Part shown: positions 10,852 to 25,401 of the stretch, one piece after another | How the letters are laid out: every line of letters begins with the position of its first letter | Position numbering within the stretch: the stretch's first letter is position 1 | Source: SAR86 cluster bacterium AG-422-E19 | GTDB lineage: Bacteria; Pseudomonadota; Gammaproteobacteria; Magnimaribacterales; AG-339-G14 | DNA: 64,000 nucleotides | Direction of reading: 5' to 3' | Assembly (NCBI GenBank): GCA_003213595.1 | Contig: QCMR01000002.1 | Span: forward strand, 1 to 64,000 | Made by a program: the position numbers and the translations under genes | Notes under the pieces: model-generated | Seen by the model: only the letters and a program-made list of their open reading frames with translations | Databases searched by the model: none | What the model was told of the DNA's origin: nothing

Positions 10852-12768
10852 TTATACTTCTTCTTCCTCGATTTTAGGTTTGTTTTCTTCCTCAGCATCG
10901 AAAATTAATTTTTCAAGCAAGTCCAAGTCAGGTGAGGTTTTTCCTTTCTTACTTCTAAGCATCTCTTGAGCTCTTAAATAGTCGTACTTTGTATTTGTCA
11001 GAGCCTGCATATCTTGAGCGGTTCTGATGATTGTCGGTTTAAGGAATACTACTAAATTTTTCTTATTGATGGTGGTTTGTTCCTGGCGAAAAGCCTTACC
11101 GATAACAGGTATGTCGCCAAGCAAAGGAACCTTTCTTATTGATTCTTGGATGTCGTCATCGATCAATCCTCCCAATACAATAGTTTGGTTATCTTCAACC
11201 ATGACCACTGTTTCTATAGCCCTTTTGTTAGTAACAATTTCTGCTGATCCTGCAGAAATGGGCCCAGAAAGAGAGGAAACTTCCTGTTCAATATCTAATT
11301 TGATTGAGTTGCCTTCATTGATTTGAGGTTTAACACTTAATTTGATTCCAATTTCTTGACGCGTAACTGTTCTAAAAGGATTTGAATTATTGGTACCTAA
11401 AGACTCTCCAGTGGTAATAGGTATCTCTTGACCAACAATAATTGATGACTCTTCGTTATCCATAGTCAATATTGAGGGAGTTGAAAGTACATTTGAGTCA
11501 CTATTTTTTGCAAGCACATTGAGGATTGCCGCAAAACTATCGCCGCCTTTTTTATACTTTCCAACTCCAGTTGCAAAGCCATCCAAACTCAACAAAGTAG
11601 ATAAGACAGCGGTTGTGCTTCCTCCTGGGGTTAATCCAGCTACAAGAGCTGAAAGATCAGGCGTTGGATTACCAAATCTTTGAGATGCAATCGGTGAGTT
11701 CGATCCTTCGCCGCCAAATAAAAATTGGAAACCCAGATCTTTTGATAACTGATCTGATATCTCAACAATGATGGCTTCAACTAGAACTTGCGCTCTCCTT
11801 ATATCAAGCTGACTAATAATTCCGGTTAAGGACGTCATCACATCTGGCTCGGCTGAAATTATGAGTGAATTTGTTTCTTCATGAGCCGTGATCGAAGTAT
11901 TGCCTTTGTTCGAACTTTTTTCATCAATATTCGGTGTCATCTTATTGAGAATTTCAACCAATGCAGCGGCATCAGCATATTTTAAATAAACAACCTTTAA
12001 GGAACTTGTACCTTGGTCTTTTACATCGAGTTTTATTACGACAGCCTTCATTCGCTCTACAATTTCTTGATCACCAAAAAGTAATACGCTGTTGCTCCTT
12101 TCAATTGCATAAGCATTAAAATCATTTGGTGCCATACCGCCAGAGTTCTCTGAAAAAACTTTATCAATCAATTTTGAAATTTGAGTGGAAGAAGAGTTTT
12201 TCAATTTAACGATTTCATAAACATCGGCAGGATTTTTATCCAGCTCATCAACAAGTTGTCTAATTCTTTTAACATTTGCATTTCGATCGGTAAGTATCAG
12301 ACTGTTGCTAGGCGCATAAACTGCAATGTGTCCCTGAGAATTTATGAGTGGTCTTATTAAAGGAATCAAAGCATTTGCAGATGTTTGACTAGGCCTAATG
12401 ATAGTCGAAACCAATGCATCTTCGGGTGAAACGGGTTTTGATACCTCAGTAAAGCTTTGCCTGCCCATTGAGGCAGGAACTATTTTGACGGCATTTGCTT
12501 GTTCAACTGCGGTAAAACCGTGAACACTGAGGACTGAAAGAAAAATTTCGTAAGCTTCTTCGATCGTTAAATCATCTCTTGAAATAACAGTTACGTTTGC
12601 CTTCACTCTTGGATCTACGACAAAAGACTTACCCGTCAAAGATGCAATATCTGAGACAAAAGATTTAATGTCTGCATCTCGCATATTAATCGTCACCGAC
12701 CATAAGCTTGATGAAAGTCCAAAAATAAGCGCATAGGCGCAACAATTCTTATAAATTGAATAAATCAT
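10852..12768 (-). CDS. gspD: Type II secretion outer-membrane secretin GspD
   Basis: GspD forms the outer-membrane channel. The 638 residues begin with an export signal up to about residue 24. A TonB-short-like N0 domain follows (ITINMRDADIKSFV...GKSFVVDPRVK, 25-95), then N1, N2 and N3 domains: VYEIVKLKNSSSTQISKL near 183, LKVVYLKYADAAALVEIL near 258 and RRAQVLVEAIIVEISDQL near 320. The secretin core ends with VPLLGDIPVIGKAFRQ near 548 and the GGLIDDD motif. The C-terminal tail is Glu/Lys-rich. Length is normal. It lies between gspC and gspE. No pilotin gene is recognisable nearby. Confidence 0.96.
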   Translation of the reverse strand: MIYSIYKNCCAYALIFGLSSSLWSVTINMRDADIKSFVSDIASLTGKSFVVDPRVKANVTVISRDDLTIEEAYEIFLSVLSVHGFTAVEQANAVKIVPASMGRQSFTEVSKPVSPEDALVSTIIRPSQTSANALIPLIRPLINSQGHIAVYAPSNSLILTDRNANVKRIRQLVDELDKNPADVYEIVKLKNSSSTQISKLIDKVFSENSGGMAPNDFNAYAIERSNSVLLFGDQEIVERMKAVVIKLDVKDQGTSSLKVVYLKYADAAALVEILNKMTPNIDEKSSNKGNTSITAHEETNSLIISAEPDVMTSLTGIISQLDIRRAQVLVEAIIVEISDQLSKDLGFQFLFGGEGSNSPIASQRFGNPTPDLSALVAGLTPGGSTTAVLSTLLSLDGFATGVGKYKKGGDSFAAILNVLAKNSDSNVLSTPSILTMDNEESSIIVGQEIPITTGESLGTNNSNPFRTVTRQEIGIKLSVKPQINEGNSIKLDIEQEVSSLSGPISAGSAEIVTNKRAIETVVMVEDNQTIVLGGLIDDDIQESIRKVPLLGDIPVIGKAFRQEQTTINKKNLVVFLKPTIIRTAQDMQALTNTKYDYLRAQEMLRSKKGKTSPDLDLLEKLIFDAEEENKPKIEEEEV

Positions 12769-12781
12769 AATTTTTTTTGGT

Positions 12782-13636
12782 TTAGTTAATGTTTATATCG
12801 ACAGATACAACTTGATCGTCTCTAACTAAATCGAGGTTAAGCGATGCTAAATCAGAGAAAAAAGAATTAATTGAATCTTGATCAGAGAGGTCAATTTCTG
12901 CAACGGAAAGTCCATTGATGGACTTCACAATATCCCCAGGTCTTAATTCCGAAGAATCAAAAAGCGCAGTACTCTCCCCTGGACTTATTTCAAGACCGGA
13001 AAAAGTTCCGTCATCAAAAACAGGTGCAAAAGTGATTAACTTCGCAATTTCCTGATTTTCAATCCACTCTTTGCTGATGGTGGGTTTTTGCTGCGATGCA
13101 ATTTTTATAGAAGTATTCCCCTGAACAACTCTTTCCATACCCTTTATTACTGAGCCCTTAAAAAAGGACAAGCTTTCGGTTATGCCAGAACGCTTGATGG
13201 TGACAAAATCTTTGTTAATTGAATCCAAGTAAACGTTATCGGAAATCATATCTCCCACGAGATAAGTTTTTTGATCGTTTTGGTTGAAGCCAATTATTGC
13301 CGATTTAACTTCATCAGAAGAAGTAACACCGTAAAGTTTTAAAGATAATGAAGTTTCAGGAGCTTTAACAAGACTTTCATAGATAGATAGACCATCAATT
13401 TCAACATCAGATGAAAATGGATTATCTATGATTCTAGGAGCATCGCTAGATGCAAAAGAGTTGTTAAAGTTATTTGAACTTAATTGGTTATTAAAAATCA
13501 ATCCGAGTAATATCGAAGAAAACTCTAAAGAAAATACTAATAAAAGTGCGCCGGAAATAGAGAATTTAAGATTTTTCTCATTCAAGTAACTTTTGTATCT
13601 TTCTAAATTGATACCTTTTAAGTAGTCCAATACCAT
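12782..13636 (-). CDS. gspC: Type II secretion protein GspC
   Basis: GspC links the inner-membrane platform to the secretin. The 284 residues show a short cytoplasmic start, one membrane helix at about 27-48 (SGALLLVFSLEFSSILLGL), a linker, the homology region at about 90-160 (SLKLYGVTSSDEVKSAIIG, typical of GspC), and a C-terminal PDZ-like domain from about 205 (SGLEISPGES...LRPGDIVKSINGL). The PDZ domain classifies it as GspC rather than the coiled-coil type. It is the first gene of the operon. There is no Shine-Dalgarno sequence before ATG 13636, and a possible -10 box lies close to the start, so a leaderless message is possible. Confidence 0.93.
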   Translation of the reverse strand: MVLDYLKGINLERYKSYLNEKNLKFSISGALLLVFSLEFSSILLGLIFNNQLSSNNFNNSFASSDAPRIIDNPFSSDVEIDGLSIYESLVKAPETSLSLKLYGVTSSDEVKSAIIGFNQNDQKTYLVGDMISDNVYLDSINKDFVTIKRSGITESLSFFKGSVIKGMERVVQGNTSIKIASQQKPTISKEWIENQEIAKLITFAPVFDDGTFSGLEISPGESTALFDSSELRPGDIVKSINGLSVAEIDLSDQDSINSFFSDLASLNLDLVRDDQVVSVDININ

Positions 13637-13646
13637 ATATACATTG

Positions 13647-13676
13647 ATTTTATGTCATATTTAGTCAAATTGACAA
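13647..13676 (-). promoter_or_regulatory. Candidate promoter of the gsp operon
   Basis: On the minus strand TTGTCA (13676-13671) and TAAAAT (13652-13647) stand 18 bases apart, each matching five of six consensus positions. The expected transcription start falls only a few bases before the gspC ATG at 13636, which would give an almost leaderless transcript. The whole gap between gspC and the divergent peptidase gene is 52 bases, so both promoters must be packed here. Confidence 0.4.
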
Positions 13677-13688
13677 AGATTTATACCA

Positions 13689-14453
13689 ATGATTATCTCT
13701 ATCTATATTATTTTCTCTGCGCTTTTGGGTAGCTTTCTAGCAAGCTTTATCTATCGCTACGTTAATAACAATATCGAAGCAGATGCATATGTGGAAAGCA
13801 TAAATATTTATACTGAACCCTCTTTTTGTCCTGCCTGTAAGACTAAAATTGATTGGTATCACCTCATTCCTGTCTTGAGTTACTTATTCTTAAGAGGAAA
13901 AGCCAAATGCTGTGGTGCAACAATCTCCTCAAGATACTTCTTGATAGAAATATTGGTCATTTCTTTGTTTTTATTGATTTTCATTACAAATGCTTCGTGG
14001 GGTTTAATACTTTTTAAAAGCATTATTGCTCTAACTTTGATATTTATTGCCTTGATAGATTATCAATACAAAATCATTCCTTTGAGCTCGCTTTTAATAT
14101 TATTTATTTTGGCTTTGATGCTTTCAGCGTTGGAGGGTCTTTTAATATTGCCCGAAATATTTATGGCAATTATTTCAGGCTTTCTCCTTTTGGCAACGAG
14201 ATGGTTATTTTTCAAACTCAAGGGAAAAGAAGCTTTGGGTTTAGGAGATGTAATCCTTTTTCCAATTTTAACTTTAATGATCCCAATGACTTTAGTCCCT
14301 ATTCTATTGCTTACTGCATCACTTCTTGGAATATTAGAGTTTTTTCTTAGCTCCAAACTGAAGAGAGATTCTGAGATTGCTTTTGGCTTTCACTTAGCAA
14401 TTGCAAGTTACTTAGGATTGGTAAATTTTTATCCTATCCTGCCTTTGATATAG
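13689..14453 (+). CDS. gspO: Prepilin peptidase (GspO/PilD)
   Basis: This bifunctional inner-membrane aspartyl protease cleaves prepilin leaders and N-methylates the new N-terminus. The 254 residues contain the cytoplasmic cysteine loop (FCPAC with C47 and C50, [16 protein letters not shown], then C74-C75) and the two catalytic aspartates: D124 in [11 protein letters not shown] and D187 in GLGDVIL. About seven membrane segments are evident. The second cysteine pair is adjacent (KCCGATIS) rather than the common CxxC. It is divergent from gspC and should process the products of gspG, I, J and K. Its 3' end overlaps the convergent pstB by 25 bases. Confidence 0.95.
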
Positions 14454-15253
14454 TTTTGAGTAAGTTCGTGATCTGGGTCGCCAAATATTTTTGATGTTTT
14501 GCCTGTCTCGACAAGGTGACCTAAATGAAAATAAGCTGCTCTTTGAGAAACTCTTGAAGCTTGGCTCATTGAATGCGTAACTATTACGATTGCATAGTTC
14601 TCTTTTAATTCACTTATCAAATCTTCGATTTTTTCTGTAGCGATTGGATCTAAAGCTGAACATGGCTCATCCATTAGGATAACATCGGGACGAACTGCTA
14701 TGGCCCTTGCAATACAGAGTCTTTGTTGTTGTCCTCCAGAAAGTGCTGTACCAGGAGTGTTTAATCTATCTTTAACCTCATCCCACAAACCTGCTCTTAA
14801 TAGAGAAGTTTCAACTATCTCATCCATATCTGATTTTGATTCAGTCATGCCGTGGATTCTTGGCCCATAGGCAATGTTTTCATAAACAGATTTTGGAAAT
14901 GGATTCGGTTTTTGGAAAACCATACCCACTCTGGCTCTAAGAAGAACAACATCCAAATCTCCATGATAGATATCAATATTTTCTAAAGTGATTTCGCCAG
15001 TTACTTTTGCGGAATCAATTGTGTCATTCAGTCTATTAAGACATCTTATAAAAGTTGACTTTCCACAACCTGAAGGCCCAATCAACGAAAGAACTTCTTT
15101 TTTACCAACTTCGATATTTATGTTCTTTAAAGCCTGATTATCGTCATAAAAAACGCAGCAATCTTTCGCTTTCATAATGACTTCTTTTTCTGTGGTTGAA
15201 TCACCAACAGTTTTAAAGTCATCTGCTAACTCTATAAGTTCTGTTTTGCTCAT
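14429..15253 (-). CDS. pstB: Phosphate ABC transporter ATP-binding protein PstB
   Basis: PstB powers high-affinity phosphate import through PstCA. It has Walker [11 protein letters not shown]-loop [15 protein letters not shown] signature [14 protein letters not shown], Walker [14 protein letters not shown] and the H-loop THSM. The start is taken at ATG 15253, four bases after the pstA stop, giving 274 residues. An upstream in-frame TTG at 15274 would overlap pstA by 17 bases and is less likely. The N-terminus is about 20 residues longer than the E. coli protein. No phoU gene follows: the next gene is the convergent prepilin peptidase. Confidence 0.97.
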
Positions 15254-15257
15254 TGAA

Positions 15258-16556
15258 CTACCACTTAGTTTCAAATTTATTTCTGAGCCAAATTGCTGTC
15301 GAATTCATTAATAGTAAAAAGAATAACAAAACTAAAATTGCTGCAGATGTTCTCTCTACGAAACCCCTCTCTGGAGCATCGGCCCATAAGTATACTTGAA
15401 CTGGAAGCGCTGCGGAGGAATCTAGTGGCGAGGATGGAACATCAACTACAAAAGCAACCATGCCAATCATCAACAAAGGAGCAGATTCGCCCAATGCTCT
15501 TGCCATTCCGATAATTGAACCGGTTAACATGCCGGGTAATGCTAAAGGAAAAACATGATCAAACACGGTTTGAATTTTAGACGCCCCTACGCCAAGCGCA
15601 GCGTCAGTAATACTCGGTGGCACAGATTGAAGCGCAGCTCGAGAAGCAATAATAATTACTGGAAAGGTCATTAATGCCAGGACCAACCCACCAACCAAAG
15701 GGGCTGATCTAGGCATACCAAAAAAGTTTATAAATACTGCAAGCCCCAACAACCCATAAATGATGGATGGCACAGCTGCTAAGTTATTGATATTCACCTC
15801 TACAAAATCTATAAATCTATTTTTTGGAGCAAACTCTTCCAAATAAATAGCGGCTGCCACACCAAGAGGAAAAGCAACTATAAAAGTTATGATTAACATG
15901 AAAAACGATCCCACTAGTGCTCCTAGTACGCCAGCGAGCTCAGGCTCTCTAGAATCTCCAGCTGTAAACAAAGTAGAGTTGAAATTTTGCCTGATTAGGT
16001 TTTGTTCTTGTAACTCTTGAACCCACCTAACTTGATTATCTGAAATTCTTCTTTGTGATTCATCCAAAGATACGTCGATATTCCCTTTCAGATACATATC
16101 AATGTCACTATCCAATCGTACCCAAATATCTATCTCTTGGCCTATCAACGAATAATCGTTTAAAACCATAGACTGTAATCGCAAGGACGTTCCCGAACTT
16201 ACCAGAGACTTCAATTCTTTTCTTTCCTTTCTAGAAGAAACTTCAGGAAAATAAGTCTTTAGAGAATCTAAGACTAATTTATCGAAGTTAGCATATCTAA
16301 TTTCTTCTTCATCTCTAAGCCGATCAGGATCGATAACTTCTTCATTTAAATAGATCTTCATATTGAGCTCACCTTGAGTAAAGGCGCTGTAACCTTTGCT
16401 GATGATGCTGCTAAAGAAAACCAATAAAAAAACTACCGCAAATAAAATTGAGACAACGCCATAAAATCTAAACATAAATTCAGAACGATATCTTTTTTTG
16501 AGACCGCGGTTTACGATTTCGGAAATATCTTGTGTCTCTTGCAAAGTATTACTCAT
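15258..16556 (-). CDS. pstA: Phosphate ABC transporter permease PstA with periplasmic insert
   Basis: The 432-residue protein is much longer than E. coli PstA (296). After one N-terminal helix (about 29-52) comes a periplasmic region of roughly 150 residues (DUF3333-like, with [21 protein letters not shown] near 70). The permease domain then starts near 205 with five further helices and the EAA-type loop [24 protein letters not shown]. Such long PstA proteins are common in marine and other gammaproteobacteria. It overlaps pstC by eight bases. PstA and PstC form the channel for phosphate delivered by PstS. Confidence 0.95.
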
Positions 16557-17925
16557 ATTGTTCTCTGTATTTTCTGACGATTTTTAGAGCGTAAAAATTT
16601 AATGCCAAAGTTACTAGGAATAGAGTTAGTCCCAGAGCAAAAGCAGCTAAGGTCTTTGGACTATCAAACTCTTGATCTCCGACCAAAAGCGTCACTATCT
16701 GCACAGTTACCGTTGTTACTGCATCTATTGGATTAAAAGATAATCTTGCAGATAAGCCTGCTGCCATTACAACAATCATGGTCTCCCCAATTGCCCTTGA
16801 AGCTGCTAAAAGTATTCCTCCAACAATTCCTGGTAAAGCAGCTGGGATGATTACCTTCTTGATTGTTTCTGATTTAGTTGCGCCCAAACCATATGAACCA
16901 TCTCGCATTGCCTGAGGCACTGCAGAAATTACATCATCAGATAAAGAAGAAACGAGTGGAATGATCATAATTCCCATAACCAAACCAACGCCAAGAGCAC
17001 TTTCTGAGGCGATATCCAAACCAATGGTTACTCCGAAATCCCTTATAAAAGGAGCTAAAGTAATTGCGGCAAAGAATCCATAAACAACAGTCGGTATTCC
17101 AGATAAAATTTCCAACATTGGTTTTGTGTAGGATCTAACTTTGGAAGGAGCATATTCGGAGAGGTAAATTGCCGTCATAAGCCCAACGGGAACAGCTACT
17201 GTCAATGAAATTAAAGATATCAACGCCGTACCAGCAAATAATGGAATGGCGCCAAACAAACCTGAAGAGCCGACTTGATCTTCACGAATTGCCATTTGCG
17301 GACTCCAAGTGAGTCCAAATAAAAAATCATCAAAGCTGATAATTTGGAAAAATCTTATGGCTTCAAATAGAACAGAAAGCAGAATTCCCGCTGTAGCAAA
17401 TATTGCAACAGTCGCAGAAGCTAAAAGTAAGTTACTGATGATCTTCTCAACTTTGTTTCTAGCTCTTAAAGTTCCAGAAATCGATCTATAGGAGAATATG
17501 AACAAAGCTAAACTTAAAACCAATGAAGAGTAAATTGCTACATCCTGAACTAATTTTGTAATTCTGTTGTAATTAGCCGCTGCCTGCTCAAGACCAATGA
17601 ATGACTCTCCTGCAATTAGATTTCCTGCAGCTAAATTTTTAACGTCATTCATTCTTAATGTAATTTCATTAGGAGACAAAGCTCTAATGGACTCTGGTAA
17701 AAGAGAAATGACTTGATTAGTTACAAATGATTCAGAAAAAAGAAGCCAAAGAAATATGATTAATAATGAGGGTGCTGCAAACCAAGCCAAGGAATAATAA
17801 CCATAATATCTTGGTAAAGAATGAAGACTCTCTGTATTTTTTAATAAAAGCGCCTTCCTTTTTCCCCAAAAAAAACTAAGAAAACCTAAAAAAATTATTG
17901 AGATTAAAAATAGACTTAATGACAT
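16549..17925 (-). CDS. pstC: Phosphate ABC transporter permease PstC
   Basis: The 458-residue permease has two helices in an N-terminal extension with a periplasmic loop (residues about 60-125) and then the conserved permease core. The EAA-like loop reads DGSYGLGATKSETIKKVIIPAALPGIVGG near 350-378, and SSGLFGAIPLFAGTALISL opens the domain. Partner of PstA in the PstSCAB importer. It is separated from pstS by 87 bases holding a strong hairpin terminator, so its expression is probably a fraction of pstS expression. It overlaps pstA by eight bases. Confidence 0.95.
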   Translation of the reverse strand: MSLSLFLISIIFLGFLSFFWGKRKALLLKNTESLHSLPRYYGYYSLAWFAAPSLLIIFLWLLFSESFVTNQVISLLPESIRALSPNEITLRMNDVKNLAAGNLIAGESFIGLEQAAANYNRITKLVQDVAIYSSLVLSLALFIFSYRSISGTLRARNKVEKIISNLLLASATVAIFATAGILLSVLFEAIRFFQIISFDDFLFGLTWSPQMAIREDQVGSSGLFGAIPLFAGTALISLISLTVAVPVGLMTAIYLSEYAPSKVRSYTKPMLEILSGIPTVVYGFFAAITLAPFIRDFGVTIGLDIASESALGVGLVMGIMIIPLVSSLSDDVISAVPQAMRDGSYGLGATKSETIKKVIIPAALPGIVGGILLAASRAIGETMIVVMAAGLSARLSFNPIDAVTTVTVQIVTLLVGDQEFDSPKTLAAFALGLTLFLVTLALNFYALKIVRKYREQYE

Positions 17926-18012: not shown

Positions 18013-19065
18013 TTAATTAAGACCTGAAAGTGTAGATAGTTTTCTAGCTGCAGATCTAAACTGACTGTATTCACCACTAGGCATTGGAATCAAACCTTTA
18101 TCAGTAAGATATCCATCTTGTCCTATGGTTTTATCAGCAGTAAATTCTCTTAAGAATTCTTTCATTCCAGGAATGGTTCCAATGTGGGCTTTTTTTACGT
18201 AGAAGTACAACGGTCTGGAAACTTTATAGTCACCTTGTGCAATATTTTCAAAAGTTGGAAGTACTCCATCAACAAAAGAACCTTGAATGGAATCAGAATT
18301 TTCCACTAAAAAGCTGTATCCAAAAACGCCAAGAGCTTTTGGGTTGGCATTTAATTTTTGTACAATTAAATTATCATTTTCGCCAGCTTCAATGTAAGGA
18401 CCATCTTCTCTAACAGAGCGACAAATCGCCTTATATCTTTTTTTGTTTTCTTTCTTAATATCTTTTAGCCACTTAAAGGTTTTACATCCGCCTTCCATAG
18501 CTAATTCTGCAAAAGCATCTCTGGTTCCTGAGGTCGGAGGTGGTCCTAAAACTTCAATTTTTATGTTTGGCAAAGAAGAATCAACATCTCTCCAAGTAAC
18601 ATTTGGATTCTTTATAAGCTGTTTTGCACCATTAGGGTGAGGAATTTCAGGAGCTAGTGCTAAAAATATTTGTCTTTTTGTTAAAGCCAAAACATCAGCT
18701 TTTTTAGAATTTGCAATAACAATTCCATCATAGCCAATTTTAATTTCAACAATATCTGTTACTCCTGCCTTAGCACAATTATCAATCTCTTTTTGCTTGA
18801 TTCTTCTCGACGCGTTTGTAATGTCAGGATGTTCGACGCCTATACCTTTGCAAAAAAGCTTCAGACCGCCTCCAGATCCAGTTGATTCGATAACTGGTGT
18901 ATTAAATTTAGTTGATTTACCAAATCTTTCAGCTACGACTGTAGCAAAAGGATAAACGGTTGAAGAACCAACAATTTTAATGGTGTCTCTTGCAGCTGCA
19001 CTTGCAGTTAAAGGTAATAAAAGCATTAATATAGCCGCTGCAAAAATTGATATAGATTTTTTCAT
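18013..19065 (-). CDS. pstS: Phosphate-binding periplasmic protein PstS
   Basis: The 350-residue protein starts at ATG 19065, with GGAG eight bases upstream; a GTG at 19074 is a less likely alternative. A signal peptide ends near TASAAA. The mature chain begins DTIKIVGSSTVYPFA, the phosphate-contacting SSTVYP motif, and continues with ESTGSGGGLKLFCKG, DITNASRRIKQKE, and a second ligand loop GPPPTSGTRDAFAEL. It belongs to the PstS group with the longer SxGxxG loops and is 30 residues longer than a compact PstS. It delivers phosphate to PstCA and should be PhoB-controlled through the site at 19117-19134. Confidence 0.96.
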   Translation of the reverse strand: MKKSISIFAAAILMLLLPLTASAAARDTIKIVGSSTVYPFATVVAERFGKSTKFNTPVIESTGSGGGLKLFCKGIGVEHPDITNASRRIKQKEIDNCAKAGVTDIVEIKIGYDGIVIANSKKADVLALTKRQIFLALAPEIPHPNGAKQLIKNPNVTWRDVDSSLPNIKIEVLGPPPTSGTRDAFAELAMEGGCKTFKWLKDIKKENKKRYKAICRSVREDGPYIEAGENDNLIVQKLNANPKALGVFGYSFLVENSDSIQGSFVDGVLPTFENIAQGDYKVSRPLYFYVKKAHIGTIPGMKEFLREFTADKTIGQDGYLTDKGLIPMPSGEYSQFRSAARKLSTLSGLN

Positions 19066-19100
19066 TATGTTCACTCCAATATAAAAAGAAATACTATTAA

Positions 19101-19166: not shown

Positions 19167-19586
19167 TTAAATGTAGTTGCTGATATTTAAGATGAAATCA
19201 AGAATTTCATCCCTTACTTTTCTGTAGATATTTAATTTTTTTACATCATCGTCTATGTCCTCTGTGAGCTTAGGAGGATCTTCAAAGCCTATATGAATGG
19301 TCTTACCTTTGAAAAAGACTGGGCAGTTTTCTTCAGCATCTGAACATAATGTAAAAACATATTCGAAATCTTTATCTTCCAGTTCGTTTATGGTTTTAGA
19401 AAATTGATCTGATATGTCAATTTTTATTTCTGACATTACTTTGACGGCGTATGGATCTAATTCTGATTTTTTAGTACCAGCCGAGAAAGCCTGAAAACAA
19501 GTAAATTTTTTTGCAATACCTTCAGCCATTTGTGATCTACAAGAATTACCTGTACAAAGAAATAATATTTTTTTTAACTCACTCAT
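19167..19586 (-). CDS. arsC: Arsenate reductase, thioredoxin-coupled ArsC type
   Basis: The 139-residue protein is of the low-molecular-weight phosphatase type. The P-loop is C11-TGNSC16-R17-S, and a redox pair C81...C88 sits in TLCSDAEENCP. These match the C10/C82/C89 triad of the thioredoxin-dependent S. aureus ArsC. D103 in FEDPP is the general acid candidate. It reduces arsenate to arsenite in the cytoplasm. It overlaps the aquaporin gene by four bases (19583-19586), so the two are translationally coupled, and pstS follows about 100 bases downstream. No arsB or acr3 pump is near, which leaves the aquaporin as the likely exit for arsenite. Confidence 0.94.
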   Translation of the reverse strand: MSELKKILFLCTGNSCRSQMAEGIAKKFTCFQAFSAGTKKSELDPYAVKVMSEIKIDISDQFSKTINELEDKDFEYVFTLCSDAEENCPVFFKGKTIHIGFEDPPKLTEDIDDDVKKLNIYRKVRDEILDFILNISNYI

Positions 19587-20227
19587 CTTAGAAATTTATA
19601 TATATAAAAGGCAATAAACAGACCGACTAACTGACCCGAAAAGAAATAAATGATTGACTCTGGAGAAATTCCAGTGAACGTATCGGTAAATGTTCTAGCT
19701 AGAGTAACTGCTGGGTTTGCGAATGAAGTAGATGATGTGAACCAATATCCAGCTGTTATAAATAAAGCAACTGAAATAGCTACATTAGATTTATTATTTT
19801 TCCTTACCATTAAGATAGTTAAAATTAATCCAAATGATGCAATTATTTCGCTGAAAAACATGCTCATACCCATCCTGGGTTTAGATGAAATCTGAAACAA
19901 ACTTAATTCAAATATGAAATGTACAAAAAAAACTGCCAATATTCCGGCAATAAACTGAATGATTAAATATGAAATCAAATCTTTTAGATTAATTTCATCT
20001 AAGAAATAAAAAACGATTGAGACTATAGGGTTGAAATGAGCTCCAGATACATCCTCAAAAGATTTAATAATTACATACAAAATTGCACCTGTTGCTATAG
20101 TATTGCCTAATAAGGCAATAGCTGGATTACCAGCTGATAAATTTTCTCCCATAATCCCGGATCCAATTACTGTAGCCACTAAAAAAAAGGTTCCTAATAA
20201 TTCAGCAAGGTATTTTTTTATTTCCAT
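19583..20227 (-). CDS. Aquaporin/glycerol-facilitator family channel (AqpS-like)
   Basis: This 214-residue MIP-family protein has six hydrophobic helices and two asparagine motifs: N66-P-I in SGAHFNPIVS, where NPA would be usual, and N171-P-A in FANPAVTLAR, with the selectivity arginine R178. Being co-transcribed with arsC, it most resembles AqpS of Sinorhizobium meliloti, where an aquaglyceroporin next to arsC releases arsenite down its gradient. That role is inference from context. A triple 11-base-phased Pho-like site lies about 64-94 bases upstream. Water or glycerol transport alone cannot be excluded. Confidence 0.9.
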   Translation of the reverse strand: MEIKKYLAELLGTFFLVATVIGSGIMGENLSAGNPAIALLGNTIATGAILYVIIKSFEDVSGAHFNPIVSIVFYFLDEINLKDLISYLIIQFIAGILAVFFVHFIFELSLFQISSKPRMGMSMFFSEIIASFGLILTILMVRKNNKSNVAISVALFITAGYWFTSSTSFANPAVTLARTFTDTFTGISPESIIYFFSGQLVGLFIAFYIYKFLR

Positions 20228-20290
20228 AAAGTCTTATAAATATTCTTTTTATTATCATTTAATATAAAAATTCACACTATTTCCTTGTTT

Positions 20291-20321
20291 ATGACACATA
20301 TTTGTCACATAATTGTCACAT
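20291..20321 (-). promoter_or_regulatory. Triple Pho-box-like repeat upstream of aquaporin-arsC
   Basis: Three 7-base units stand at exact 11-base phasing: on the minus strand ATGTGAC, ATGTGAC and ATGTGTC, separated by AATT and AAAT. On the plus strand the same bases read ATGACAC, TTGTCAC, TTGTCAC. Because TGT-N-ACA is almost self-complementary, orientation is not decided by the sequence. The nearest gene start it could serve is the aquaporin at 20227; no convincing gene follows on the plus strand before the porin terminator. Confidence 0.65.
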
Positions 20322-20422
20322 GGAATTAAGAGTAAAAAAATTATTTTCAACAATTTTCTTTGGGTCATTTTTAGCCTGGAGCAATTTCTTAATTCTCTTA
20401 GCTACTTATAGCCTTTTCATTT

Positions 20423-20458
20423 AAAAAAAAGGGCCCAACCACTTCTGATCAGGCCCTT
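20423..20458 (-). terminator. Terminator of the porin gene
   Basis: On the minus strand AAGGGCC (20458-20452) pairs with GGCCCTT (20435-20429) across a 16-base loop and runs into eight T. It starts about 30 bases after the porin stop codon at 20488. In the other direction the hairpin has only a poor T-run. Confidence 0.85.
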
Positions 20459-20487: not shown

Positions 20488-21429
20488 TTAAAATTTGTAC
20501 TCAAATCCTACGCCTGTGTGAGCTACGTCTTTATCAGCAGCATCTTCTGTGCGAATTGTGTGATATGCAAGGATTTTAAAGCCCTTAAATAATTTGTGAT
20601 CGTAACCAATTTGAGTTTGACTAAGACCGGTCTTCCCTTTGTAGTCAGAAGTACCATATTGAAATTTTACTTTACCTTTTCCATCTGCTACTTTTCCAGC
20701 GATACTGAAAGTGGTTGCATCATTTTCATAGGTCCCGTTTGATTCTTCTGTAGTAGTATAGATTAATCCAATTGTAACGGGTCCAGCAGGAATCATCATT
20801 CCAAGCCTAGTATTGTCATTACCTTTAATGGAATCTTGTTCAGTTGCTATAGCAAACTTAATAACATCAATATCATATTTTAAAGATACTGATACATTGT
20901 CTCCAAATTCTCCTGAATTAGGCATATCATCTTTACCTTTTCCAACACCAACATGAATACTTACTCCACCACCAAACGTAGGAGAATCATATCCAAAAAA
21001 TGAACCTATTCTGTTTTCGCCATTGTGCACATTTTTAATATCCCCTTTGAGGTCATTAAATAGATCGGCTTTTAGCTGAGCTAACTTAAGAGGTGTATCG
21101 TGAGTACCTATCTTTAAGGTACCAAAGCTTCCTTTCAAACCAACAAAAGAGTTTCTCTGATCAAAAGTCTTACCTTTAGTGCTGTCATTTGTAACATCTA
21201 CCTGATATTCGATTTGGTAGATCCCGGTAAGGCCATTTTTCATATCAACTTTACCTTTAAAACCTAATCTTGAAGCATTGCTGACAAGATCAATTTCTTT
21301 CTCATTTACACCGTCAGATCCATCGTTGTTAACAGCCATATTTAATTTACCGTAAACTTTTGGAGCTGAAATTGCACTCATTGATATCAGAACTAAGGCT
21401 GATATAAATACTGCTTTAAATTTATTCAT
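20488..21429 (-). CDS. Outer-membrane porin, probably phosphate-starvation induced
   Basis: The 313-residue protein has a signal peptide ending AISA before PKVYGKLN and a beta-barrel pattern of alternating residues. It ends GVGFEYKF with the terminal Phe that marks outer-membrane insertion. Stretches such as DLVSNASRLGFKGK and RNSFVGLKGSFGTLKIG are typical of general gram-negative porins (Porin_4 type). The mature chain is compact, consistent with a 16-strand barrel. Upstream is a Pho-like site (21521-21540), suggesting a PhoE/OprP-like role in anion uptake. Ion preference cannot be told from sequence by eye. It has its own terminator. Confidence 0.9.
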   Translation of the reverse strand: MNKFKAVFISALVLISMSAISAPKVYGKLNMAVNNDGSDGVNEKEIDLVSNASRLGFKGKVDMKNGLTGIYQIEYQVDVTNDSTKGKTFDQRNSFVGLKGSFGTLKIGTHDTPLKLAQLKADLFNDLKGDIKNVHNGENRIGSFFGYDSPTFGGGVSIHVGVGKGKDDMPNSGEFGDNVSVSLKYDIDVIKFAIATEQDSIKGNDNTRLGMMIPAGPVTIGLIYTTTEESNGTYENDATTFSIAGKVADGKGKVKFQYGTSDYKGKTGLSQTQIGYDHKLFKGFKILAYHTIRTEDAADKDVAHTGVGFEYKF

Positions 21430-21520: not shown

Positions 21521-21540
21521 TTGTGACATCTAAGTGACAG
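21521..21540. promoter_or_regulatory. Pho-box-like site between porin and ppk2
   Basis: On the minus strand CTGTCAC-TTAG-ATGTCAC (21540-21523) is close to the E. coli Pho box consensus and faces the porin gene. Read on the plus strand as TTGTGAC-ATCT-AAGTGAC (21521-21538) it is followed after 10 bases by TTTAAA (21549-21554), so the one site could also serve ppk2. Confidence 0.7.
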
Positions 21541-21577: not shown

Positions 21578-22408
21578 ATGATCGAATTCGATATTCCAGA
21601 CTATAAAAGAATAAATGAAGAGCTTTATGAGAAAGAAAAAAGAAAGCTTTTAATTGAATTGGTAAAACTGCAAAACTGGATTATTAAGTCAAAGCGAAAG
21701 ATTGCTTTGGTTTTTGAAGGAAGAGATACCGCGGGTAAGACCGGAAGCATCTCGGTGCTTACTAAATATTTGATACCAGATCACTGTAAGCTCGTTGCTT
21801 TAGGCAAGCCAACTGAGAAAGAGTCAAAAAAATGGTTCAAAAGATATGAAAAGCATTTGCCCAATACCGGTGAAATAGTTTTTTTCGATCGATCTTGGTA
21901 TACCCGAGCGTTGGTTGAAGCAACTATGGGTTATTGCACGAAAAGGCAATATACCTACTTCATGAAAAATGTAATTCCCTGGGAAAAAAAACAGATCGAA
22001 GAAGGTGTTGAATTTTTTAAGTTTTATCTCTCAATTGAAAAAAACACTCAACAAAAGAGAATAGATAAAAGAGCTACCAGCCCTCTCGTTTATTGGAAGA
22101 TAAGCGAAAATGATTTAAAGATGCTTGATAAATGGGATGCCTTCACCCTATACAAAGAACAAATGTTCAAAAGAACTTCATATGACGAGGCACCCTGGAT
22201 TGTTTTAAATGCCAATAATAAAAAAGTCGCAATATTAAGTGCCCTCAGATTTATCTTGAATGCCTTTGATTATCCAGATAAAGATTTACCTAAGCCAAAA
22301 ATCTGGTCAGAAGGTTTGAACAATTACAAAGTTGAAATCAATAAGGTACTTTTTGAAAATTTATCGTATCAACAGTATAAAACTTTAAGAGTTTTTGCTG
22401 ATGAATAA
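21578..22408 (+). CDS. ppk2: Polyphosphate kinase 2 family protein
   Basis: PPK2 enzymes transfer phosphate between polyphosphate and nucleotides. The 276-residue chain has the Walker A variant EGRDTAGKTGSI (G48 to K54; most members read GRDAAGKGG), the lid region, and the Walker B region FFDRSWYTRALVEATMGYC with D104-R105. The C-terminal KISENDLKMLDKWDAFTLYKE block is also typical. Class I (NDP) versus II/III (NMP) preference cannot be settled here. It is coupled to ppx by an 8-base overlap, making a polyphosphate-handling pair inside a phosphate island. No Shine-Dalgarno sequence precedes the ATG; TAAAAT lies six bases before it. Confidence 0.93.
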   Translation: MIEFDIPDYKRINEELYEKEKRKLLIELVKLQNWIIKSKRKIALVFEGRDTAGKTGSISVLTKYLIPDHCKLVALGKPTEKESKKWFKRYEKHLPNTGEIVFFDRSWYTRALVEATMGYCTKRQYTYFMKNVIPWEKKQIEEGVEFFKFYLSIEKNTQQKRIDKRATSPLVYWKISENDLKMLDKWDAFTLYKEQMFKRTSYDEAPWIVLNANNKKVAILSALRFILNAFDYPDKDLPKPKIWSEGLNNYKVEINKVLFENLSYQQYKTLRVFADE

Positions 22409-23291
22409 ACAATCTAAGAAAGTTTCTTGCATAGATATCGGCACAAATGCCATTAAGTACCGGCAATACCGTTTGTTGCCGAATAGCCATCTTGAATTAG
22501 ATACCTTTAAAAGAGTTAGCTTAAGGTTAGGGTCTGACGCCTTTAGCAGTGGGAAAATGACAGATGAGACTTATCTAGACTTTTTAACAGTTTTAAAAAA
22601 ACTAAAAAAACATGCAAAAAAAAAGAATGCAGCTTTACTGGGAATATTTGCAACCTCCGCAATGCGTACTTTTTCTAACAGAGAACAAGTTATTAAAAAA
22701 GTAAAAAAAGAATTGAATTTAGAAATTGAAATTCTCTCTGGAAATGAAGAAGCTTCATTATTAAAATTTTTTAACTACAAAGAATTCATCGACTCAGAAA
22801 GTCTTTTAGTAGATGTTGGTGGTGGAAGCACAGAGCTTTATCTTTGTGATAAAAATGAAGAAAAACTTAAATCTTTCAATTTGGGTGCCATAAGAATTCT
22901 AAAAGGCTTAGATAAAGAAAAAAATTGGCAAGAATTGTCTGACTTTTTAGCAAATATTAATTCCAGACAAGTACAAAACATCATTGGTATTGGGGGTAAT
23001 GCTAGACAGATTATTCAAGCTGCTGGAGTTTTAAAAGATTCTTTAAATTTAGAGGAACTCCAAGAAATAAGATCCCGACTAGGAAAATTATCTCTTGAAG
23101 AGAAAGTATCTGATTACAATTTTCCTTCGGATAGAGCAGATATCATTGAACACGCTGCAAACATTTTTGAATTCATTTTATTATGTTTTGAAAATGCTAA
23201 ATTCTTTGCTTCAAATTGGAATATAAGCGACGGCTACATTTTCAAGAAAAATGCTGAAATCTCTCAGGCCACTTCTTTAGAAGTTTCTTGA
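22401..23291 (+). CDS. Ppx/GppA family exopolyphosphatase-like protein, short form
   Basis: The start is ATG 22401, overlapping the ppk2 stop by eight bases with AAGAG upstream; a TTG six bases earlier is less likely. The 296-residue chain is the two-lobed ASKHA core of Ppx/GppA: phosphate-1 loop CIDIGTNAIKY, then FATSAMRTFSNRE, EILSGNEEASL with the catalytic Glu, phosphate-2 loop LLVDVGGGSTELYL and the later IIGIGGNARQI. The C-terminal HD-like domains of full Ppx (about 500 residues) are absent, as in short actinobacterial-type Ppx. It could hydrolyse polyphosphate or pppGpp. Its 3' end overlaps convergent phoR by 28 bases. Confidence 0.92.
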   Translation: MNKQSKKVSCIDIGTNAIKYRQYRLLPNSHLELDTFKRVSLRLGSDAFSSGKMTDETYLDFLTVLKKLKKHAKKKNAALLGIFATSAMRTFSNREQVIKKVKKELNLEIEILSGNEEASLLKFFNYKEFIDSESLLVDVGGGSTELYLCDKNEEKLKSFNLGAIRILKGLDKEKNWQELSDFLANINSRQVQNIIGIGGNARQIIQAAGVLKDSLNLEELQEIRSRLGKLSLEEKVSDYNFPSDRADIIEHAANIFEFILLCFENAKFFASNWNISDGYIFKKNAEISQATSLEVS

Positions 23292-24610
23292 TGAATTTTT
23301 ACATCGATATAAAAAACAGATCCTTTGGGTTCGTTTGATTCTACCCCAACGGAATAACCCATCATCAATGCTAAATTCTTAGAGATTGAGAGCCCAAGTC
23401 CTGTTCCACCAATTTTTTTGGATCTGCCTTTATCAACTCTGAAAAATCTTTCGAAAACTCTCTCACGGTATTTTTTAGCTATCCCAATACCATTGTCTAT
23501 AACCTTGATACGACAAAAATCTTTATCTATCTTTTCGTTATCAATCTCAATAATCTCGTCATTGGGACTGTGCTTTATTGCGTTGGTTATGTAATTTGAA
23601 ATTATTATTTTTATTGCTGATTCATCACCAATAATATGAGTTATATCAGAGATCTTATTTACCAATTTGATGTTACTTGACTCAGTCATTGGGTTTAATT
23701 CTTTGATGGCAGAATCAACAATATTTTTAATATTGAGTTTATCTAAAGAAATCGGATAGTCTCCAGACTCCATGCTAGAAATTGAAAGTAACTCGTTCAC
23801 AATAGTCGCCATCCTTTCACTTTGAGATTGAATTGCTTTGGTAAAATTTATTGCATTCTCATCTTTTATTAATTTAGTTGATAACAAAGTTTCAGAATTT
23901 GCTTTTATTACACTAATCGGCGTTCTTAATTCATGAGAGACATTGCCGATAAAATCCTCACGCATCTTTTCAAGGGTCTTTAATTTTGAAATATCAGAAA
24001 AAACAATTAAGAGCTGATTATCATTTGAAAATTTCTGTGAACTTACAAGATAAACTGTTTTTATTGTTCTTGGGCCTGCTATTTCTTTGGTGTATTCATC
24101 TTTCTCCCAAGCTTTCTTGATGAATTTTTTAAATGCGGGATATGAAATATTTTTAAATAAATCATCACCAATTTTTAATTCAGGGAAAAAATCTTTTGTA
24201 ATGGTCTGATTGAAATACATCACGTTTAAATCTTCGTTCACTAAGATAACTCCCTGACCCATTCTTGATAATAAATTACTGATGAATGAAAGTTGTTTTG
24301 AATAGCTCTCCAATTCATTTTGAACAACAGCAGTTGATGTCCTCAAAGTATCAAAAGCTGATTCAGAATCAATGTCTTCATTATTGTCTGGTCCTGAAAT
24401 TATCCTTGATGCCTGAATAACAACGTCTCTTAAAAATCTATAAAGAGTGGTGCCAGCGGCAAGTATAAGAATTAAAAAGAGAGAAATACCAGCAAGGATG
24501 TTTTCACTAAAGTATTCATTTCCCCTTAAAATGATGGCGCTAATCAAGAATGAGGCAAGAACAGTAAAAACTATCAGTATAAATATTCTAATTTTTAAAG
24601 AGAACTTCAT
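23264..24610 (-). CDS. phoR: Phosphate regulon sensor histidine kinase PhoR
   Basis: The 448-residue kinase has two N-terminal membrane helices (about 7-28 and 37-58), no large periplasmic domain, and a PAS domain (about 105-210). The dimerisation box FIGNVSHELRTPISVIKAN holds H226, and the ATPase domain has N-box NYITNAIKHSP, G1 DNGIGIAK and G2 GGTGLGLSI. Lack of a sensory periplasmic loop is typical of PhoR, which reads phosphate status through PstSCAB and PhoU. It follows phoB by nine bases. No phoU is in the window. Confidence 0.94.
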   Translation of the reverse strand: MKFSLKIRIFILIVFTVLASFLISAIILRGNEYFSENILAGISLFLILILAAGTTLYRFLRDVVIQASRIISGPDNNEDIDSESAFDTLRTSTAVVQNELESYSKQLSFISNLLSRMGQGVILVNEDLNVMYFNQTITKDFFPELKIGDDLFKNISYPAFKKFIKKAWEKDEYTKEIAGPRTIKTVYLVSSQKFSNDNQLLIVFSDISKLKTLEKMREDFIGNVSHELRTPISVIKANSETLLSTKLIKDENAINFTKAIQSQSERMATIVNELLSISSMESGDYPISLDKLNIKNIVDSAIKELNPMTESSNIKLVNKISDITHIIGDESAIKIIISNYITNAIKHSPNDEIIEIDNEKIDKDFCRIKVIDNGIGIAKKYRERVFERFFRVDKGRSKKIGGTGLGLSISKNLALMMGYSVGVESNEPKGSVFYIDVKIHQETSKEVA

Positions 24611-24619
24611 AAATTAAAA

Positions 24620-25318
24620 TCAAATCTTATTAAATATATATCCGACACCTCGAATTGTTTCGATATTGTCTCCATACTTTCCTAACTTAGATCTCAGTCT
24701 TTTCACATGAGTATCTACTGTACGAGTAGTGACAGAACTATCGTACCCCCAAACTTTATCCAAAAGATTATCTCTGGTTTGAACTTTATCAGCTCTTTTA
24801 ATTAAATATTTCAACAGGGTGAATTCTTTTGCCGTAAGCGCAATTTTCTTATCCTTTAGGAATACTTTATGTTTACTTGTATCTATTAGGAGGTCTTGAT
24901 AAGAGATATTTGGCTCATCATCGGAAGTGTCTTTGGGCGACTCTTTTTCACCTCTTCTCAATTGAGCTTGAATTCTTAACATCAATTCTCTAACGCTGTA
25001 TGGCTTAACGATATAGTCATCGGCACCGAGTTCAAAACCCACGACTCGGTCTACCTCCTCACCCTTTGCGGTAACAATTATCACGCTGATATTCTTTAGA
25101 CTATCTTTTGATCTGATATGTCGACAAATATCCAATCCTGGCATGTCCGGAAGCATCAAATCTAAAATTACCAGATCTGGAGCTGGTGCATTTTCTAGAA
25201 TTTCGAGAGCCTCAGAACCTTTAAGTGCAGAAGTTACCTTATAGCCTTCGTTTTCAAGATTGAAACTTAAGGTCTGATTAAGATCTTCTTCGTCTTCGAT
25301 GACTAGAATTTTTTTCAT
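24620..25318 (-). CDS. phoB: Phosphate regulon response regulator PhoB
   Basis: The 232-residue regulator has a receiver domain with acidic pocket E8-D9-E10, phospho-acceptor D53 in LVILDLMLPDMPG, and the conserved Thr and Lys in VTAKGEE. An OmpR/PhoB winged helix follows, with LTAKEFTLLKYLIKR, VWGYDSSVTTRTVDTHVKRLRSKLG and the C-terminal IETIRGVGYIF. The combination with PhoR, pst genes and Pho-like boxes makes PhoB the only sensible call among OmpR-family members. Upstream at 25382-25401 lies a Pho-like site, pointing to self-activation. Confidence 0.95.
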   Translation of the reverse strand: MKKILVIEDEEDLNQTLSFNLENEGYKVTSALKGSEALEILENAPAPDLVILDLMLPDMPGLDICRHIRSKDSLKNISVIIVTAKGEEVDRVVGFELGADDYIVKPYSVRELMLRIQAQLRRGEKESPKDTSDDEPNISYQDLLIDTSKHKVFLKDKKIALTAKEFTLLKYLIKRADKVQTRDNLLDKVWGYDSSVTTRTVDTHVKRLRSKLGKYGDNIETIRGVGYIFNKI

Positions 25319-25381: not shown

Positions 25382-25401
25382 CTGTAACTTTGCTGTCAAA
25401 G
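25382..25401 (-). promoter_or_regulatory. Pho-box-like site upstream of phoB
   Basis: The plus strand reads CTGTAAC-TTTG-CTGTCAA (25382-25399), two 7-base units at 11-base phasing close to the Pho consensus. The only gene start nearby is phoB at 25318 on the minus strand, where the same bases read CTTTGAC-AGCA-AAGTTAC. Autoregulation of phoBR is known in many bacteria. Confidence 0.55.

Follow-up and report, generated by a model that had tools for sequence, protein, structure and literature searches.

In surface oceans poor in phosphate, arsenate competes with phosphate, and the locus described here raises the question of what governs an arsenate reductase gene that is placed among genes of phosphate uptake. 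The locus belongs to the SAR86 cluster bacterium AG-422-E19 (1,109,701 bases in 18 contigs, 91% complete) and was studied in a stretch of 64,000 nucleotides of contig QCMR01000002.1, referred to below as the window. A first-pass annotation of this DNA proposed that a channel gene, aqp, and an arsenate reductase gene, arsC, are switched on together with the uptake of phosphate.

Gene organisation of the phosphate locus

The phosphate locus is composed of phoB-phoR-ppx-ppk2-porin-pstSCAB, with aqp and arsC placed within it. The pair is assigned to this locus because of its neighbours, pstSCAB downstream and the porin, ppk2, ppx, phoR and phoB upstream.

14429-15274, minus strand: pstB ATPase (ORF, conserved gene order)
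15258-16556, minus strand: pstA permease (ORF, conserved gene order)
16549-17925, minus strand: pstC permease (ORF, conserved gene order)
18013-19074, minus strand: pstS, phosphate-binding protein (TIGR02136, 154.8 bits, under the cut-off of 206.6)
19167-19586, minus strand: arsC, thioredoxin-type (LMWPc) arsenate reductase, 139 aa (PF01451, 60.6 bits against a cut-off of 23.2)
19583-20227, minus strand: aqp, AqpS-type MIP channel, 214 aa (PF00230, 79.9 bits against a cut-off of 25)
20488-21429, minus strand: porin (Porin_4) of the Pho locus (PF13609, 118.9 bits)
21578-22408, plus strand: ppk2, polyphosphate kinase 2 (PF03976)
22395-23291, plus strand: ppx/gppA-type phosphatase (PF02541)
23264-24610, minus strand: phoR-like sensor kinase (TIGR02966, 243.3 bits, under the cut-off of 334.2)
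24620-25318, minus strand: phoB-like response regulator (TIGR02154, 241.4 bits, under the cut-off of 296.2)

The names pstC, pstA and pstB are assigned here by position and general homology. The proposed coupling of aqp and arsC next to pstS was borne out: the two genes share 4 bases, and arsC is followed after 92 bases by pstS and then by pstC, pstA and pstB, all on the minus strand. No terminator was predicted in the 92-base gap, which carries a conserved block, GTAACAGATATGCCACA. This block may be a weak Pho site of its own, and it is possible that one Pho site drives the whole aqp-arsC-pstSCAB operon. ArsC, PstS, PhoB and PhoR each score under their NCBIfam cut-offs, which we count against the explanation preferred below; so do we count the missing PhoU, found in 0 of 16 genomes of the genus (control, 13 of 14), where PhoR was found in 14 and PstS in 7.

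Search for an arsenic sensor and an arsenite pump

ArsR (HTH_5) was found in none of the 16 genus genomes (control, 14 of 14), and the same holds for Acr3 and, above the cut-off of 22.2, for ArsB, one genome (G009) giving a single 19-bit match below it. Neither pump was detected in the source genome at its 91% completeness. An ArsR HMM that recovered four of four left-out controls gave three matches across 49 loci, two in Acidobacteria (L084 and L086) and one in Opitutia (L090), and none in SAR86, SAR11 or Marinimicrobia; near the SAR86 aqp-arsC pairs neither arsR nor arsH was seen. These results agree with the annotation, which had noted the lack of an arsenite pump and had named an arsR regulator over the pair as the observation that would speak against its proposal. 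As far as the sequence goes, the locus does not appear to be a classical ars operon, with its ArsR repressor and its ArsB or Acr3 pump.

Pho-like sites upstream of aqp and pit

The intergenic region upstream of aqp and the neighbouring regions contain the following elements, the last entry being taken from the Pit locus L050 of a relative.

20292-20318, strand not assigned: triple Pho-like site of 11-bp period (core matches 14/15 on the plus strand, 13/15 on the minus strand)
20308-20313, plus strand: CATAAT, possible -10 hexamer of the 34-aa ORF, 6 bases before its ATG, conserved in the alignment
20320-20424, plus strand: small divergent ORF, 34 aa, one membrane segment by eye, its start codon adjoining the triple site
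21524-21539, minus strand: canonical Pho-like pair upstream of the porin, exact TGTCA-N6-TGTCA, kept in relatives
25383-25398, plus strand: weaker Pho-like pair (9/10), for which its position upstream of phoB is the support
12776-12901 of Pit locus L050, plus strand: ORF of about 41 aa, one membrane segment by eye

On the plus strand the triple site reads TGACA-N6-TGTCA-N6-TGTCA, within a few bases of the coordinates claimed earlier (20291-20321). The TGTCA core is taken by us from known Pho boxes. The 64-kb window has a single instance of the pattern TGWCA-N6-TGWCA-N6-TGWCA, none of 100 dinucleotide shuffles has any, and a Markov control gave triples of at least 14/15 in 0 of 40 simulated windows. 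The exact pair TGTCA-N6-TGTCA was present twice against 0.20 expected (3 of 100 shuffles reached two), once inside the triple and once at 21524-21539, while pairs of at least 9/10 are to be expected by chance about 5 times per 64 kb. The direct repeats at the aqp promoter thus appear Pho-box-like, at a frequency far beyond chance, and PhoB would be expected to bind at 20292-20318 and to confer phosphate-dependent induction.

The triple before aqp is kept in seven of seven Pst-type members of the genus (13/15 in L025 of genome G001), starting at a fixed distance of 91-92 bases from the gene. A triple of at least 13/15, oriented the same way with respect to the transporter gene, also precedes pit, the gene of the permease Pit. 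This holds for 12 of the 13 SAR86 Pit loci that were scanned (L026, L050, L052-L057, L059, L061, L065 and L066; L069, which coincides with L026, was not counted separately), the exception being L060, in which only a fragment of pit was matched. Its presence before pit ties this Pho-like element to phosphate transport. Exact triples were present in 44 of 126 fetched loci, many of them overlapping, and in the 49 loci checked against genes all exact triples are situated in front of aqp or pit.

A Pho site before aqp as a universal feature was ruled out. In six SAR86 loci (L056, L057, L059, L060, L061 and L117) the 300 bases before aqp hold no Pho-like site, the best pair of 6/10 being at the bottom of the background, and in these loci the aqp-arsC pair is retained in or near the phosphate locus, which counts against our explanation. 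SAR11 loci likewise lack a site of this kind upstream of aqp (best 6-7/10), and SAR11 PhoB sites may differ. SAR86 loci of genus g3 reach only 8/10 before aqp and, for the two pit genes of g3 that were scored, only 7/10. Pairs of 9/10 accompany the neighbouring porin in L058, L065, L066 and L071; in the first three, aqp lies within about 65 bases after the porin, and in L071 two 9/10 pairs stand directly before aqp.

The 34-aa ORF seems to be conserved as a protein: 4 of 16 substitutions are nonsynonymous where 12.0 would be expected, and none of 20000 random draws gave so low a number. It occurs in 8 of 40 family genomes, each with pstS, and has no visible ribosome site; its start may be leaderless. 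A similar short ORF was seen by eye at the same place in L071, and in the SAR86 Pit loci another conserved short ORF, of about 41 aa, lies between the triple and pit.

This ORF bears on the first alternative, that the pair detoxifies arsenate constitutively and the triple serves the divergent ORF or some other purpose. Streamlined genomes often have few regulators, and the six related loci with the pair and no site before aqp fit such an arrangement, as does the best core match of the triple, which reads towards the small ORF; the ambiguous orientation of the site (14/15 on plus, 13/15 on minus) is a point against the explanation we prefer. We nevertheless regard constitutive expression as unlikely, because a like triple stands in sense orientation before pit in genomes without the 34-aa ORF, because the distance to aqp is fixed across the Pst loci of the genus, and because arsC of SAR11 is induced in phosphate starvation, as discussed below.

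Pst and Pit forms of the locus

Among the 16 genomes of the genus, aqp was found in eight and arsC in the same eight, adjacent in each; pstS was found in seven, all of them with aqp-arsC. Counted by locus, the pair accompanies Pst in seven of seven cases (the window and L020-L025), the same gene order that the annotation had proposed to seek in relatives, and of six intact Pit loci it is absent from five (L050 and L052-L055) and present in one (L026). These counts leave out L051, at a contig end, and genomes G006 and G008, with no phoR match. One locus therefore occurs in the genus in two forms, with Pst and the pair or with the permease Pit, mostly without the pair.

At the level of the family, aqp was found in 22 and pstS in 9 of 40 genomes, whose completeness of 59-96% limits the reading of absences, and all nine genomes with pstS carry aqp (Fisher p 0.0018, kinship ignored). 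The context of aqp was readable in 21 of 22 cases, a fragment at a contig end (G023) being left out. All 21 are in a phosphate locus, 9 with Pst and 12 with Pit, although for eight of them (G016, G018, G019, G020, G022, G037, G038 and G039) we infer the locus. The link with Pst drawn in the first-pass annotation thus held for the phosphate locus and failed for Pst alone. A pair exclusive to Pst was ruled out by the 12 Pit contexts.

In the L056 group, 4-5 kb separate aqp-arsC from pit, and this interval contains a TonB receptor and a phytase (in L056, positions 11260-16682, between arsC and pit), which suggests uptake of organic phosphate in these Pit loci. A SAR86 single-cell contig (L058, 8950-17472) carries porin-aqp-arsC-pstSCAB followed by a partial second porin-small ORF-aqp, as if cassettes had recombined. 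It should be added that phoR of genome G004 (L047, L049) lies in two frames with stops, a frameshift or an assembly error, and that G001 (L042, L048) has two copies each of phoR and the small ORF on different contigs and is perhaps a mixed genome.

Arsenate reductase and channel

The aqp gene is the sole MIP gene found in the genome (two matched pieces in one frame). Its product, which scores under the curated NCBIfam cut-off for MIP, is 46% identical to AqpS of Sinorhizobium meliloti across 98% of the query and has two NPA-like motifs, HFNPI and FANPAV. Most MIPs have NPAR; here the filter motif is NPAV, arginine-less and with a hydrophobic residue instead, as it is in AqpS. In an alignment of 21 rows, AqpS among them, all 20 complete rows have valine or isoleucine at this position, which we take to be that of the selectivity-filter arginine in other MIPs (the row of L090 is incomplete). 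Relatives of the channel were found in ars clusters that also contain arsR and arsH, and 5 of 50,697 phage records matched aqp, each at less than 60% identity. Such a channel would be expected to carry As(OH)3, in the outward direction.

An arginine-less filter should also pass larger solutes, and SAR11 with the pair is reported to oxidise DMA (PMC6426599). The channel might accordingly serve mainly methylated arsenic (MMA, DMA), a role also considered for SAR11, in import or export, with ArsC as a side guard. We consider this improbable, as the tight overlap of aqp with an arsenate reductase gene points to arsenite.

The product of arsC has the catalytic set of its type, a C11-x4-C16-R17 loop with C81, C88 and D103-P104, of which C11, R17, C81, C88, D103 and P104 are invariant in eight of eight genus members. 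The best NCBIfam match is the thioredoxin ArsC family TIGR02691 (116.4 bits; the curated cut-off of 174.3 is not reached) and the best PDB match is ArsC 1jl3 (E 2.4e-29), with which the three thioredoxin-type redox cysteines align; tyrosine phosphatases match at weaker E-values. The gene is thus predicted to encode a thioredoxin-coupled arsenate reductase of the pI258 type with a full catalytic set. That the pair has no arsenic role and is a low-molecular-weight phosphatase with a water or glycerol channel in phosphate physiology could be argued from the ArsC and MIP scores under curated cut-offs and from the other members of both families, such as the tyrosine phosphatases, but is very improbable in view of the invariant redox cysteines aligned to 1jl3, the identity with AqpS and the channel relatives in ars clusters.

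Proposed mechanism

From the genes, their catalytic and filter residues, the site, its conservation and the absence of HTH_5, Acr3 and above-cut-off ArsB, we infer that an ArsR-free AqpS/ArsC module for arsenate detoxification, driven by PhoB, has quite likely been built into the Pho regulon of SAR86. Under phosphate starvation PhoR/PhoB would act at the triple site 20292-20318, and PhoB would switch on aqp-arsC, with transcription perhaps continuing into pstSCAB. The thioredoxin-coupled ArsC would then convert arsenate that had slipped in with phosphate into arsenite, which as neutral As(OH)3 would leave down its gradient through the AqpS-type channel. Entry of arsenate through Pst is an assumption here, since a Pst-type protein can discriminate strongly against arsenate (500-850-fold, cited in PMC3834237), a point that we also count against this explanation. 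With no ArsB or Acr3 pump and no ArsR, the control looks anticipatory, responding to phosphate hunger and not to arsenic; the phosphate cluster, the starvation switch and the lack of an arsenic sensor together mean that detoxification probably runs whenever the cell is hungry for phosphate.

Comparison with known systems

No description of the SAR86 locus was found among the listed titles and abstract openings of open-licence PMC papers. The nearest case is SAR11 strain HTCC7211, in which LMWPc_ArsC and an aquaporin accompany high arsenate tolerance and ArsC rises 2.3-fold in phosphate starvation; the gene frequency of the pair in SAR11 (Pelagibacter 1a.3) is inverse to phosphate and no other arsenic genes are reported (PMC6426599). 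The same two families are adjacent in SAR11 and in SAR86. SAR86, a different clade, departs from SAR11 in that its aqp comes first and overlaps arsC, in its visible Pho-like triple and in having the locus in Pst and Pit forms.

In S. meliloti AqpS takes the place of ArsB (PMC6205960). The likeness drawn by the first-pass annotation stood for the channel, with its NPAV motif and 46% identity, and did not extend to the layout: the S. meliloti operon is arsR-aqpS-arsC-arsH with a glutaredoxin-type ArsC, whereas the SAR86 ArsC is of thioredoxin type and has no arsR or arsH nearby. Salinispora tropica has a channel-ArsC fusion (Wu et al. 2010, as cited in PMC6205960), which couples channel and arsenate reductase in one polypeptide where SAR86 uses two overlapping genes.

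PhoB control of arsenic genes at low phosphate, as proposed for SAR86, is described for arsenite oxidation in Halomonas HAL1 and Agrobacterium, in Halomonas through a Pho box (PMC7533571). What is switched on there is the oxidation of arsenite (aioBA), and in Agrobacterium Aio and ArsR regulators take part as well; in SAR86 it would be reduction and export without ArsR. Arsenic islands containing pst genes are known (PMC3834237), and ArsR controls pst genes in Agrobacterium (PMC7965956). Already known, therefore, are the SAR11 pair and its rise in phosphate starvation, the replacement of ArsB by AqpS, the channel-ArsC fusion and PhoB-run arsenite oxidation. The SAR86 case adds a Pho-like triple common to aqp and to the alternative transporter Pit, the genus-wide absence of HTH_5-type ArsR, and the alternation of Pst and Pit at one locus.

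Phosphate-linked pairs beyond SAR86

A scan of named genomes gave 36 loci, 16 of SAR86 and 20 others. Eight of these 20 (L076-L080, L082, L083 and L091), of SAR11, other alphaproteobacterial or proteobacterial origin, have pst genes by homology within the stretch that was fetched; several of the other stretches end soon after aqp. In L076-L080 and L091 (SAR11/alpha), all or part of phoR-pstSCAB-phoB is found close to aqp, and in L078 the families checked were PstS, a PhoR-like kinase, a PhoB-like regulator, ArsC, a PHO4 permease and the channel. In the aqp tree, a starred set (97/92) unites the main SAR86 group with Marinimicrobia, SAR86 genus g3 stands outside it, and the pst-linked SAR11/alpha rows fall into two separate starred groups, the deeper forks being weak (83-85). 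This scatter suggests repeated recruitment into phosphate loci.

A broader reading, which we offer tentatively and at rather less than even credence, is that in abundant ocean bacteria arsenate detoxification has moved more than once from arsenic sensing to phosphate sensing, and that the SAR86 triple is perhaps a two-way switch. The recruited aqp lineages would be those of the main SAR86 clade, SAR86 genus g3 and two of SAR11/alpha, all without ArsR, and the recruited pairs would form a feed-forward defence tied to phosphate hunger. As a two-way switch, the triple would turn on aqp-arsC and cover the leaderless promoter of the 34-aa membrane peptide.

If the PhoB-driven module is real, it would explain how streamlined bacteria are defended against arsenic without an arsenic sensor, and transcripts of arsC-aqp would mark phosphate stress as much as arsenic. 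The alternation at one locus of Pst with the pair and Pit, mostly lacking it, offers a ready comparison of phosphate supply and arsenic defence across ocean basins.
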